A stretch of DNA of 64,000 bases from Vulcanisaeta distributa JCM 11217 (lineage in GTDB: Archaea; Thermoproteota; Thermoprotei; Thermoproteales; Thermocladiaceae), in NCBI RefSeq assembly GCF_001316005.1, contig NZ_BBBJ01000001.1:248001-312000 (forward strand). The letters are read 5' to 3'. The position numbers and the translations under genes are program-made. Every line of letters begins with the position of its first letter. The stretch's first letter is position 1. The notes under the pieces are model-generated. The model was not told the origin of the DNA. It was given only the letters and a program-made list of their open reading frames with translations, and did not search any database. This document shows, piece by piece, positions 8,161-37,385 of the stretch.

Positions 8161-8409
8161 TCACAAATGCCGTATTCCCATACCAAACCAATTAAATAAT
8201 GCATATGCGGTTATACCACAGAACATCTCATTACTAAGCAATACGCTTTTGTGTTTCTTGACTCGGTTTAGGAACTCGTTAATCAGCTTCATGACTTCCT
8301 CAATTACTCTAGGATCATTGACTGGTTCGCCGCATTTAAGTCTCCTCGAGTTCTTAGCCTTGACGCCCCAGCAAATCCTTGAGCCGTTAAGAGACATGGA
8401 GACATCCAT
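8161..8409 (-). pseudogene. PaREP2b N-terminal fragment
   Basis: Eighty-two residues matching the beginnings of the two longer PaREP2b genes in this window (24976-26540 and 35828-37385): ICWGVKAKNSRRLKCGEP aligns with VCWGVKARGNKRLKCGNE, and LINEFLNRVKKHKSVLLS aligns with LINVFLNRVEKHKDILLS. After about 60 residues the similarity ends and the frame closes, so only the first fifth of the gene remains. PaREP2b proteins are a lineage-specific repeated family of Thermoproteales with no established function. Confidence 0.7.
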
Positions 8410-8502
8410 AGATTAACTCCCAACAAAGCTAATAAATCACTACCAGGGAGGTACTGAACAGACTTAAGTAAGCAATTGAAGGAGGGCTGTATTTTAATTA
8501 GG

Positions 8503-22759: not shown

Positions 22760-23823
22760 TCAACTATGCAAAACCTTAATAATGCCAGGCTCACCCTCCT
22801 TACCGCTAACCTCAAACCTCACGCCAAGCACTCTCTCGACTATGTATATATTCGTTAGTGCGTGCAGGGTTATTTTAGAAACACCAACCACACCACCGCC
22901 GGCGAGGGCCATGTACGGTATAACCATGTCACCCATGTGCTCATCAAGCGCCATACCACTCCTCAAATTCTCGAGTAAATTCCTGGCTGCTTCCTCACCA
23001 ACCACCTCCGCAGGCTTACCCCCCCTCTCACCAAGCGCGTCCGCACCCTTTATCAAGCCCTTACTTGACACGGCCCACAGGACAATGCCACTGCCAGGGC
23101 CTAGATGCGGGTCCCTGCCCTGCTCGTAAGTCTCCACTGCAATGTCAATTGGAACCTTAACCCCCCCAGCCTTAACCAGGTACTCTCTGGCCGAGTTGGC
23201 CTGTCTATGAGCCACGTGGGCCGGCAACCTAACCGCGTGAGAAATACCCCCCCTGACCTCCCTCAAATCACCAAACTCAATAACCTCAACAGGCCTTAAC
23301 TTACTCGGCTCCACCGTAAGCACAACCTCACCACCACCCTTGGGTAATGGCCTCGCCTAACCAACCTCACCTCCGCCTTAACACCGAATAAGCTCAGCAT
23401 TGGAAGCATAACGAACCTCACGTAGTCAATTGGTGGTGACCAGGGCACGTCAGTTCCGCCGGTTATCGTAACCGTACTCCTACACGGAGCAAACACAAGT
23501 ATTGGCAATATGGTCTGAATAACAAGCGTAACAGCACCTGCCGTGCCAATGTCAAACCTAAACTCACCACAGCCAATCCTCCCCCCCGGCCTAAACACAA
23601 GCTCTGTGGAACCCTTCACGGCACCTGTCACCTGGGCATTGGATATTTTAGCCGCGGCCAGAACACCAGTCAAATGCTGCTGCTGAAGCCCTGGATTACT
23701 CCTCTTGGCCCTAATGTTGTATATCCTAACCGGCCTACCCGTGATCGCCGACAGCGCTAATGCGGTCCTAAGTATCTGCCCACCACCCTCAAGCACCGAA
23801 CCATCAATCTCCACAAGACTCAT
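22760..23823 (-). CDS. rtcA: RNA 3'-terminal phosphate cyclase (frame-broken)
   Basis: ATP-dependent conversion of RNA 3'-phosphate ends to 2',3'-cyclic phosphates. Signature parts: [20 protein letters not shown] at the N-terminus, [10 protein letters not shown]-like [12 protein letters not shown], the family motif in [18 protein letters not shown], and RGHYPKGGG reconstructed at the break. The C-terminal half has the adenylation His region in [19 protein letters not shown]. One C is lost at about 23341. Reconstructed length about 350, normal. Confidence 0.9.
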
Positions 23824-24891: not shown

Positions 24892-24975
24892 AACAATGCA
24901 AGAATCAATAATATTTATTTCAATATAATTAAAAATAATAATAAATAATATAAGAATAGATTATGATATAAAACA

Positions 24976-26540
24976 TTAATTATTAAAGTTTAATTTTGAT
25001 AATGCCCTAGCTATTCTCCAAGCTCTCTCAACCTTGCCCTCGCTTACTGCCTCCTCATACATCCTTCTGAGTATATCACGTACCTTTATCGCAAGCTCTG
25101 GATGACTTAATACTTCACTTCCTTTTATATAGACGGCGAATCTCTTGCCCCCCCTCCTGCCTAATTTAGCATTATAACCAGCTATTTGTAATCTTTCCCA
25201 AATTTCCATAGCATCTTTAAACTCTTTACGATAAGATATGAGTTCAATACTGCCTTTGGTAGTAATGTTTACTGTCATTTTAATGCCATTAATCACATTA
25301 ATAGATGAATCACCCTTAGCCCTGCCCTTCATATTTGCTAAGATAATTAATCGTTTAAGTTTATTTGCATCTGGTAAAGCGCTTAGATATTCAATGATTA
25401 TTTTAATCATAATATTACTAAACCATTTCTTAGCTATAGCAATGGCCTTGGAGGTAGAAATCATTATCTCCTTTACAGTCTTTATGCTATATTCCTTAAA
25501 GCCGTAATTATACATCCTACCAATTATTGGCTTCCATAAATTATACTTTCTATCACCTATCGTAAGTGCAATTGATTTGTTCTTAATTCTTATGCTACCA
25601 TCACCGAGAATAGCAAATAATAAAAATATTAAAAATCGTCATCACTAAACTTAATGGCTCTTTCAACTACCTCCTTTTTATTCTTAACACCATGATTCAT
25701 GGTTGTTAGAACCCATGCGACACTAACATTATCGTCATTGATACTTATACCACTTACATATATATGGACCTTACCTGGATAACTCAGTATCCAGATTATT
25801 GCTTGCCAAAGATTGTGCGTATTCATTCTCGGATATCCAGCCCTATCTATGGTACCATCAGTTAAGAGCAAACCATATTCCATAGCATTTAATATAATAT
25901 CATCAAATAATTTAGGAATGGTTATATGAATACCCTTAAGCTTAGTCAATGTCAACGCTATTGTCCTGCTTCCATTTGCCTTTCTACTTATCGTGATTGC
26001 TATATGCCTTGTATATAAATGAACTGCAAAGCTCTTATTTTCTTTATTCGGCTCTCCACTAACTAATATTCTTGCTTCGCCCCCCCTTATTAACTCATTT
26101 ATTAATTGTTCAAGCTCATGTTTGCCTACTCTTAACCATCTTTTTCTTACACGTTTCAAAAGACCAAGCATTGATTCGGCTATCCTAACCATTGATTTCT
26201 TAGTTTCTATAATTACTTTAGTTAGATCTTTATTTGCTTCATTACTATAATGATTACTACCTTTTTCGACAATACTCTGATTACCATTTTCACCTAACTT
26301 AAACTCTAGATTATTAATAAACTCGTCTAATGCAATTATATATCTATCAAATGGTGTTCTTGAATCACTTAACAAAATATCCCTATATTTTTCGACTTTG
26401 TTCAGAAATTCATTGATAAGTTTCAGGGCTTCTTTCCTAGTAATATTATCAACAAGTTCGCCAGGAATTAAACGTCGATTTCCTTTAACCTTTATACCCC
26501 CCCAATATATCTTATTCATTTCGGAAGCTAGCAGAACCAT
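24976..26540 (-). CDS. PaREP2b family protein, copy 1 (frame-broken)
   Basis: N-terminal half starts MVLLASEMNKIYWG, then VKGNRRLIPGELVDN, LINEFLNKVEKYRDILLS and a conserved middle (YTRHIAITISRKANGS, LLLTDGTIDRAGYPRMNTH). After SDDDF a T6 appears written as T5 at about 25629. Restoring it gives FLIFLLFAILGDGSIRIKN, DRKYNLWKPIIGRMYNYGF and a C-terminal DNA-binding-like region to SKLNFNN. FAILGDGSI resembles a LAGLIDADG motif. The family is repeated in Thermoproteales and its function is not established. AT-rich codons differ from neighbouring genes. About 520 residues. Confidence 0.75.
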
Positions 26541-26627
26541 GGGATCTTCATAAGTTATTTTATCAGCATGAGTAATAAATTACTTACACTGCTTAGGTTG
26601 AAATAACTTAAGCTGGAAGTAAAAATA

Positions 26628-27101
26628 ATGCATGATAGTAAGAAACATTTTCTGTACGAATTTTACCCATCACCCTCCGTGGAGATAAGCAGGTTCACAG
26701 TCAGGCCTGGCGATGTGATATACGTGAACGTGACATACATAGGAGGTAATTCGTTCCAGGTAACCATTAAGGACCTAACAAGGAACGAGGCATACACAGT
26801 GACAGGTAGTGTAAGCGGCGCATTACTATCGTCCGCCGAGTGCATACTAGAGAGGCCTACCGTTAATGGCCAGTTAACGGCGCTGGCTAACTTCGGAACT
26901 GCGTACTTTGGGCAGGACTACACGGACGTAATGGGCACGTGCTACGCGACGGTGAGCGGTAGCACCGCCGCCTTCGGAACCTTCTCATCAACCGTAGAAA
27001 TAGTGATGACTGCATACAACGGTAAGATCCTGGCACAACCAAGCTCATTAACCAGCGACGGATCAAGCTTCACAGTAACATACGTAAGCAGCGGTAAGTA
27101 A
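26628..27101 (+). pseudogene. Glutamic-peptidase (G1, eqolisin-like) C-terminal part
   Basis: A 157-residue fragment. YEFYPSPSVEISRFTVRPGDVI parallels the YEWYPAPS...VSPGD segment of eqolisins. The later SSAECILERPTVNGQLTALA parallels the AEWIVEDP strand that carries the catalytic Glu, here with Trp replaced by Cys. The usual upstream half with the catalytic Gln and Trp-rich core is absent, and there is no signal peptide, so the gene is probably truncated next to the PaREP2b insertion. These enzymes work outside the cell at low pH, fitting an acidophile. Confidence 0.6.
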
Positions 27102-35648: not shown

Positions 35649-35827
35649 GGTAATGATGGTGACCTAAGTGATTTTTAAGTTTTTATTAATGACTTGCTTA
35701 ACGATTATGCGTAGGTTTTGAGCATCGATAAAGTAATACGTATCTGTTTGAAATTAATTGACGACTTTCAGCTCAAACTATGAAAGTAATTTATTAATCA
35801 GGTTGAGAATAGGCTTATAGATGCCTA

Positions 35828-37385
35828 ATGGCTCTTCAGGTCTCTGATAAGATTAGAGTATGTTGGGGGGCGTAAAAGCTAGGGGTAATAAACGTCTAAA
35901 GTGTGGTAATGAGACCGATGAAACCACGAGAAAGGAAGCTTTGAAACTTATTAATGTATTTCTGAACCGAGTCGAGAAGCATAAAGACATTTTATTAAGT
36001 GATGAGAAATCACCATTCGACGTCTACATTAATGACTTGTCAAAATTCATTGAATATTTAAGGATTGAGATGTCTGAAGGAGGTAATGAAAAGGTTTCTG
36101 AAGCTAGGAATGCTATGCTCAGAATAGCAGAAATAATGCTTAAGCTCTCAAGGAAAGCAAGAAAAAGATGGTTAAAATTATATAAGGTAGAGCTTGAGGA
36201 ACTAATTGTCAAGCTAACTAAAGGCGAAATGACAATACCGGTAACTGGAGATATAAATAATAAAAATAGGAGTTTTATAGTACATATGTATACTAATCAT
36301 ATAGCAATAAATGCATGCAGGATTGCTAGGAATGGCAACATAACGGTGAAGTTTACATTCACAGGTCTCAAAGGTGAGCATATTGAATCGCCAAAATTAT
36401 TTAATGATAGTATATTGAAGGCCATGCAGTATGGATTACTTTTGACTGATGGATCGATTTACCAAGGCTATCCAGGAATGGCCACACATCAAATGTGGCA
36501 AAGCATCGTGTGGCACCTAGTGTTTCCAGGTAAAAATTACATAGCTATAGATGGTATCAGTATCAATGATAATATAAGCACCGTATGGCAATTGACATCC
36601 CTTAACTACAAGTTTGAAGGTAAGAGTGCAGTTAATATTAAGCGTGGTTTTGTTGGGGGGGAGGTTGTTGGTTTTGATGATTGGTTGTTTTTGTGGTTTT
36701 TGTTGTTTGCTGTGTTTGGTGATGGTAATGTTGATGTTCAGGATGAGTATGATGTGAGGGAGATTCGGTTGTTCATGGGTGGTGGTAAGTACGTGTTGTG
36801 GAGGCCGATTATTGAGAGGTTGAGTGGGTTGGGTTTTAGGGGGGGTGGTGAGTATGGGTGGGAGTGGGTTGTTAGGGGTTAGGTCTTCGAGGGCTGTTAA
36901 GTTGGCTAGGGAGTGGTTGGGTGATCCCGTGTTTGGGGGGGTTATTATTGGGGGGGGATTTGGCTCGATTGAGCGATGCTGTTAAGCTTAGGCAATTGAT
37001 TGGACTGGCTGGCGTGGGTTATAGGCCGAAGGGTAGGTCCTCCGTGATTATTGGCGGTGTGAAAATGACGGTAAGGGTTCGTGACGGTTATGTGGAGTTA
37101 GTGGCCGTTCACAAGGATGGAGCCGAAATCACGAAGGTTTTAGAGAGTCTTAAGGCCCTGGGGGGGATTAATGCGAGTGTTACTCCGTGGGGGGGTGGTG
37201 GCATGAGCGCCGTGCGTGTAAGGCAGGGTGAGGTGATGAGGCATGATTGGGTTAGGGCCGTGGTATGTGGAAAACTGACTGAAATGCTGAGGGAGGCCGT
37301 GGGTAATGGTGATGATGGGAGATCGCGAAGTATTAATGGCGCCATGCTAGGCTCGGCTGCCAAACCACTACCCCCCCGGATTTAA
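35828..37385 (+). CDS. PaREP2b family protein, copy 2, mosaic (frame-broken)
   Basis: Start ATG 35828 gives MALQVSDKIRVCWG, joined across a G4 written as G6 at 35862 to VKARGNKRLKCGNE. N-terminal and middle regions parallel copy 1 (LLLTDGSIYQGYPGMATHQM, IAIDGISINDNIS). From about 36640 the codons change abruptly from A/T rich to G/T rich, and the C-terminal part (FLLFAVFGDGN, KYVLWRPIIERLSGLGFRG, VKMTVRVRDGYVELVAV) parallels the other copy's end. An extra G at about 36875 breaks the frame. It looks like a recombinant of two family members. Confidence 0.7.

Follow-up and report, generated by a model that had tools for sequence, protein, structure and literature searches.

The PaREP2b-type gene in the window (the whole 64,000-nucleotide stretch of Vulcanisaeta distributa JCM 11217 DNA analysed here) belongs to a family that is probably a freestanding, multi-copy mobile gene. 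Its product has a predicted LAGLIDADG fold of the double-motif type and is most likely a DNA endonuclease that descends from homing endonucleases. The parts of this reading differ in strength. The fold and the LAGLIDADG ancestry are close to certain, and the mobility of the gene family is very likely. That the protein is an active nuclease driving its own spread is the favoured reading, somewhat more likely than not. The ancestry is well supported because a strong structural match is combined with clear movement of copies between related genomes.

Three copies are present in the window, and all three are broken (see the table). Copy 1 is one gene in two frames, since the 303-aa N-part hits a stop at the frame change. 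The C-part frame reads FLIFLLFAILGDGSIRIKNKSIALTIGDRKYNLWKPIIGRM. In the preliminary description, a GDG motif like that of LAGLIDADG proteins was placed in the C-terminal half of this gene. The motif, FLLFAILGDGSI, is present there, and it is beyond chance, as its D and second G are invariant in 44 of 44 aligned members. The domain itself is not limited to the C-terminal half. A second motif, GLLLTDGT, sits in the N-part, and because this motif with its invariant D precedes the frameshift, the LAGLIDADG domain spans both halves of the gene. The domain limits given in the table are residues 177-375 of the model of a V. distributa paralogue, transferred by offset with indels ignored. The corresponding stretch FLLFAVFGDGN, also reported for copy 2, is found at its expected place. 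Copy 2 is an older insertion, since it shares its flanks with a V. distributa copy, L079. By eye, the window contains many C/G runs of six or more and many split frames. The frameshifts may be read errors of the assembly, which is 67% complete; the frame change of copy 1 is either such an error or a natural mutation.

Features of the window that bear on the PaREP2b-type copies
Feature	Positions	Strand	Remarks
Copy 3, fragment	8164-8412	-	N-terminal part only
Inserted segment of event W	24935-26653	.	No homology to the orthologous interval elsewhere in Vulcanisaeta
PaREP2b-type gene, copy 1	24976-26540	-	One frameshift
Copy 1, C-part frame	24979-25635	-	219 aa
C-terminal b-b-a-b-b module	25129-25305	-	Approximate limits; related to PF07775 repeated modules
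Double-motif LAGLIDADG-fold domain	25327-25916	-	Predicted; approximate limits
LAGLIDADG-like motif 2, FLLFAILGDGSI	25591-25626	-	D and second G invariant in 44/44 members
Frame change of copy 1	25629-25635	-	Inside a T run
Copy 1, N-part	25629-26540	-	303 aa
Family signature MNTHNLWQ	25803-25826	-	First T and last Q invariant in 44/44 members
LAGLIDADG-like motif 1, GLLLTDGT	25851-25874	-	D invariant in 44/44 members
Promoter-like TTTCAAT..CTTAA..TTATTA box at the family's conserved 5' end	26576-26625	-	Degenerate version
Peptidase_A4 (eqolisin) gene, 3' remnant	26654-27101	+	Pfam E 5.5e-16
Copy 2	35803-37379	+	Frames broken
Copy 2, motif 1, LLLTDG	36436-36453	+	
Copy 2, motif 2, FLLFAVFGDGN	36697-36729	+	

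The genome of the window, which is related to V. distributa JCM 11216 and to Vulcanisaeta sp. JCM 16159, yields 38 match rows for the N-part and 23 for the C-part, where rows are pieces rather than copies. At E<=1e-4, matches occur in 12 of 41 related genomes: nine of the 12 of the genus, one other of the family and two of the order. With a 13-row profile, 18 of 300 genomes of the phylum are matched, all from one class. Viral contigs contain no relative and phage records no DNA match, and a viral origin is rejected on this basis.

Alignment A5 contains 44 members, the most distant of which is 17% identical to the first row. Its rows are the longest open frames picked from the relatives found, and broken copies are excluded. 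Six columns are fully invariant: G211, D216, T229, Q234, D302 and G303 in the numbering of L041. D302-G303 belong to the GDG of motif 2, and D216 closes motif 1, so that each motif helix ends in an acid that is present in every member. The closed genomes G004, G008 and G010 contain many intact frames, 485-662 aa in length. The dN/dS ratio lies between 0.14 and 0.37 in seven of the eight computed pairs and is 0.77 in the other; a ninth pair is saturated. The proteins are maintained, though many copies are broken; the copy L166:1103-2590, for example, has an internal stop. Some copies (L054/L165, L062/L072, L056) contain long N-terminal extensions (..DPASPGAGE..SSSAPGTAGGVGG..) that are absent from others. 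The upstream DNA of several copies (in L073, L155, L164, L159, L076, L156 and L161) shares a small divergent frame of about 70-100 aa (e.g. ..DYYLEVLDKEVKVIKQVK..KTVKVRYACGDEVDE..). The one such frame tested has no Pfam match above the cut-off. The element may thus contain two genes, with this frame as the second.

The LAGLIDADG signal in sequence comparisons is weak. Both pieces of copy 1 give nothing above the Pfam cut-off, and a PDB sequence search finds no LAGLIDADG match. Among the 44 members, the profiles reached at E<=0.05 are LAGLIDADG_WhiA (four members), LAGLIDADG_3 (two), LAGLIDADG_2 (one) and PaRep2b (two). The best E-value to a LAGLIDADG profile is 0.0014, and every score shown is below the curated cut-off; in the comparison of the 44 members, the scores shown are those of the first member. 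The hhalign probability against an alignment of LAGLIDADG_3 is 11% for A1 and 6.8% for A5. That alignment is made up of 16 intein-type domains, from 16 of 20 loci, and the four loci without the regular-expression motif are left out. Reversed-sequence controls are lower still (0.1-0.2%), so the signal is nonzero and yet no proof. Proof from Pfam, PDB sequence searches and hhalign is therefore rejected, and because of this weakness the LAGLIDADG claim rests on the structural model and the invariant residues.

Since the window gene is broken, AlphaFold2 was applied to an intact paralogue, the 495-residue V. distributa protein L071, using an alignment of 26 rows with the window pieces among them. 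The model has a mean pLDDT of 89.2 and a pTM of 0.71. Its N-terminal region is helical and is followed by a pseudo-dimeric LAGLIDADG core and a C-terminal module. The order a-b-b-a-b-b occurs twice, at residues 182-248 and 270-343, and the chain as predicted is a two-repeat LAGLIDADG fold. In a Foldseek search of the PDB, all 12 matches at E<=0.001 are LAGLIDADG proteins, as are 50 of 50 among the matches listed, with WhiA at rank 6. The same is true of VIA, where 50 of 50 among the matches listed are LAGLIDADG proteins and the coverage is approximately 177-375. The top VIA match is E-DreI (Z 10.4, rmsd 2.7, 169 residues aligned), followed by PI-PfuI (10.2), I-DmoI (10.0, model residues 180-374), WhiA (9.9) and I-SceI (9.5). 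A VIA Z below 8 can reflect arrangement alone; 67 chains are at Z >=8. The structural check proposed with the preliminary description thus yields a strong fit of the predicted model to LAGLIDADG proteins, and the reading is not refuted by it.

The VIA ranges also suggest where the invariant acids fall, in a way that would suit two acids meeting at the centre of the pseudo-dimer. The VIA ranges start at model residue 180 for I-DmoI residue 5 and at model residue 269 for I-CreI residue 5. By these starts, and assuming a gapless helix, model D196 corresponds to I-DmoI residue 21 and D284 to I-CreI residue 20, which are presumably the catalytic aspartates. Modelled alone, the C-terminal module has a pLDDT of 86.5 and forms b-b-a-b-b plus helices. 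Its matches overall are mostly LAGLIDADG chains and are weak: 50 of 50 among the VIA matches listed are LAGLIDADG-fold chains, at a Z of at most 5.9. Given these low values, the predicted module is at most suggestive of a third, motif-less LAGLIDADG-like half.

The closest likeness is to the archaeal double-motif LAGLIDADG endonucleases of introns and inteins (I-DmoI, I-Tsp061I, PI-PfuI). Shared features are the predicted a-b-b-a-b-b order twice per chain, a motif helix with an aspartate in each repeat and a structural Z of about 10. Unlike these endonucleases, the Vulcanisaeta family is freestanding, has an extra N-terminal helical region and a C-terminal module, and occurs as many diverged copies in each genome. 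A homing site is not found for it. Freestanding homing endonuclease genes of phages and bacteria are self-standing mobile nuclease genes that lie between or inside other genes. The Vulcanisaeta family differs from them in being archaeal and chromosomal, and in forming a large, amplified family of paralogues.

The LAGLIDADG fold is also present in non-nucleases, and WhiA is among the best matches, which is a counterpoint to the nuclease reading. The members could be LAGLIDADG-fold DNA-binding proteins without nuclease activity, acting as a regulator or chromatin factor, with a gene that is moved passively by other machinery. WhiA / DUF199 regulators have the same core fold and a similar Z, the Pfam WhiA model is the LAGLIDADG model most often reached below the cut-off (4/44), and purifying selection would also suit a host role. 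WhiA, however, is a non-nuclease that has lost the catalytic acids, whereas the Vulcanisaeta family keeps both motif aspartates throughout A5. The C-terminal module of the family is presumably unlike the helix-turn-helix of WhiA. High copy number, insertions within host genes and decayed copies also look selfish. On this evidence, the non-nuclease explanation is unlikely, and it is the strongest of the alternatives.

Movement of copies is observed at five presence/absence sites between Vulcanisaeta genomes (events W, A, B, C and D), two of which are base-precise. The comparison of strains that was proposed for detecting movement thus finds it clearly, and the reading withstands this comparison as well. 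Event W is the insertion of copy 1. Its right junction is sharp, at 26653/26654, and its left junction falls at 24924-24985 depending on the genome compared. The site is empty in seven of 11 other genomes (G003, G002, G004, G008, G010, G005 and G006), where the flanks are approximately 350-470 bp apart compared with 1,720 bp in the window. In an alignment of seven loci, the right flank is seen in five, all from 26654. Of the other two, one has just the left flank and one has neither. The first ~118 codons of the Peptidase_A4 gene were lost at this insertion. The interval missing at the site is the start of that gene, which is one open frame in three of the five loci read and has frame breaks in two. 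No match to the lost N-terminus is present elsewhere in the window's genome at E<=0.01, an absence that carries little weight in an assembly that is 67% complete.

In event A, a copy in G008, 1,748 bp are inserted between flanks that are 1-11 bp apart in 10 of 11 other genomes, and a 9-bp direct repeat, CCGAGAATG, is present at both ends. In event B, a copy in G004, 2,158 bp are inserted between flanks that are joined with a 1-bp overlap in seven of 11 others. The 3' half of a tRNA-Lys (named by eye) lies downstream, at one end of this segment, which is without a direct repeat. Event B is apparently also present in G006, at a contig end. The place of event C, a second G008 copy, is taken by approximately 480-560 bp in nine of 11 others. 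Event D, a copy common to G008 and G010, replaces approximately 1.2 kb at the start of a host gene. This gene is present in three compared genomes, and the site is empty in all three loci compared. The host genes are presumably dienelactone-hydrolase-like (C) and oxidase-like (D). Target DNA is lost in three of the five events. Separately, G010 contains approximately 2.4 kb of extra DNA (G010:C1:132283-134681) between its matches to window positions 23811 and 23887, beside a gene that is presumably RNA-cyclase-like. This is perhaps another insertion.

Many copies have a common promoter-like 5' box starting with TTTCAAT. A 3' end motif, GCCCAGGGCCCACGGGC, is present with four mismatches or fewer in 19 of 29 copies, and the window copy is without it. 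As a pattern with three free positions, the motif has 19 exact matches in 12 genomes, only in Vulcanisaeta; the backward control of the pattern has no matches. Several of these motifs stand beyond the stop codon, which indicates that the DNA itself is kept. The inverted motif is present at the 5' end of four of 29 copies (two mismatches or fewer), and with so few copies terminal inverted repeats are rejected as a defining feature. No target sequence common to the five events is found. A 10-bp core, GCCCACGGGC, lies exactly at the junction of event B, the one event of five with the 3' motif at the junction. As a general target the 3' motif is rejected: at W, A, C and D, even the best match is 3-5 mismatches away, no better than in random stretches, a background that includes some copies' own ends.

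These ends raise the possibility of a transposon-like element that has defined ends and is moved by a transposase in trans, in which case the LAGLIDADG protein would be cargo or an accessory nuclease. The conserved 3' motif, the near-inverted motif at some 5' ends and the direct repeat of event A all point this way, and the 9-bp repeat fits a transposase equally well. The inserted segments, however, overrun those ends. The insertion includes approximately 190 bp upstream of the conserved start of the gene in event A and approximately 550 bp in event B, where the tRNA half lies beyond the other end. The element ends of A and B thus differ, and B has no direct repeat. The stretches that were read contain no evident transposase. 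From this unequal overrun of the end marks and from the tRNA genes near copies, we infer that the segments were captured by break repair rather than cut out by a transposase. The transposon explanation is accordingly rather improbable, a little more so than the non-nuclease one.

Under the preferred reading of a mobile endonuclease gene, the protein would make a double-strand break in chromosomal DNA. Repair of the break with a copy of the gene and variable flanking DNA would then insert the gene, often with loss of target DNA. Insertion of this kind would account for the uneven lengths of the elements, for the target DNA lost in three of five events and for the tRNA half that came along in one of them. 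The preliminary description held that homing-endonuclease ancestry would explain how the family spreads within genomes. LAGLIDADG ancestry and copy movement bear this out in part, whereas self-driven spread is a step that we infer, with no common target among the events. In a bolder and rather doubtful reading, PaREP2b would be a LAGLIDADG-based mobile element that has moved beyond allelic homing and enters many sites unrelated to one another, somewhat favouring tRNA gene ends. It would be a single gene equipped with a promoter and a 3' end that is a GC-rich palindrome, and the nuclease would take the role of a transposase, a force reshaping Thermoproteales genomes.

A complete tRNA lies within 220 bp of the 3' end in five of 48 copies compared with 16 of 1,500 random stretches, so that copies are near tRNA genes more often than random DNA is. 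The random stretches were drawn at other loci, and they are unlike the copies in base composition and in how they were selected. Four complete tRNA genes (Asp, Ser, Asn and Phe) face the 3' ends of copies at 4-23 bp (L069, L155, L189 and L077). The fifth, a tRNA-Val in L164, is 91 bp away and in the other orientation. The tRNA-neighbour locations also include L153:396-439. These neighbours, and the bI3 maturase among the VIA matches (Z 8.5), could suit a LAGLIDADG protein acting on RNA, as a maturase or a tRNA-related factor. Such a role is very improbable: neither an intron nor an intein surrounds the gene, those copies that were followed up occupy intergenic or protein-gene sites, and neighbouring tRNAs can be insertion targets. 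Least probable of all is a chance GDG motif in a protein that is not LAGLIDADG, which would suit the Pfam result for the window protein and is contradicted by the model, the fold searches and the two invariant aspartates.

In Pyrobaculum and Vulcanisaeta, few genes are as highly repeated as those of the PaREP2 type. The one paper found that discusses them, PMC3558965, calls PaREP2b 'putative transposons', without a mechanism. In the open-access literature searched, PaREP2b is nowhere described as a LAGLIDADG protein. The predicted LAGLIDADG core with its two invariant aspartates makes PaREP2b a testable enzyme with named residues to mutate, and intact proteins and precise empty sites are now at hand for testing. 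If the protein cuts DNA, archaeal chromosomes would be home to a LAGLIDADG family that is large, amplified and freestanding.

The name PaREP2b, used in the preliminary description, is not given by Pfam; the two families are joined by a wider profile comparison. PaRep2b (PF07775) has no match in the window's genome or in any of 12 Vulcanisaeta genomes, and it is matched in 10 of 45 genomes of the order. The A5 profile finds the PF07775-type Pyrobaculum protein L088 (E 3.1e-8) in two stretches, one around motif 1 (199-247) and one that runs on from motif 2 (286-473). It also finds L087 (E 6.5e-12) and L089 (E 5.7e-11), both in the C-terminal module. The hhalign probability of A5 is 95.7% against five PF07775-type proteins aligned and 1.6 to 71.6% against them singly. 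Because of these profile and hhalign links, the name is valid for the superfamily. Both families are highly repeated in their genomes. PF07775 differs from the Vulcanisaeta family in that it comprises mainly modules of the C-terminal type, in Pyrobaculum often within very long frames, and it seems to describe mostly C-terminal modules. In four Pyrobaculum/Thermoproteus-type genomes (G025, G036, G038 and G042), the stop-to-stop frames with PF07775 matches are as long as 4,725 aa and are either giant repeat proteins or long frames that are open by chance.
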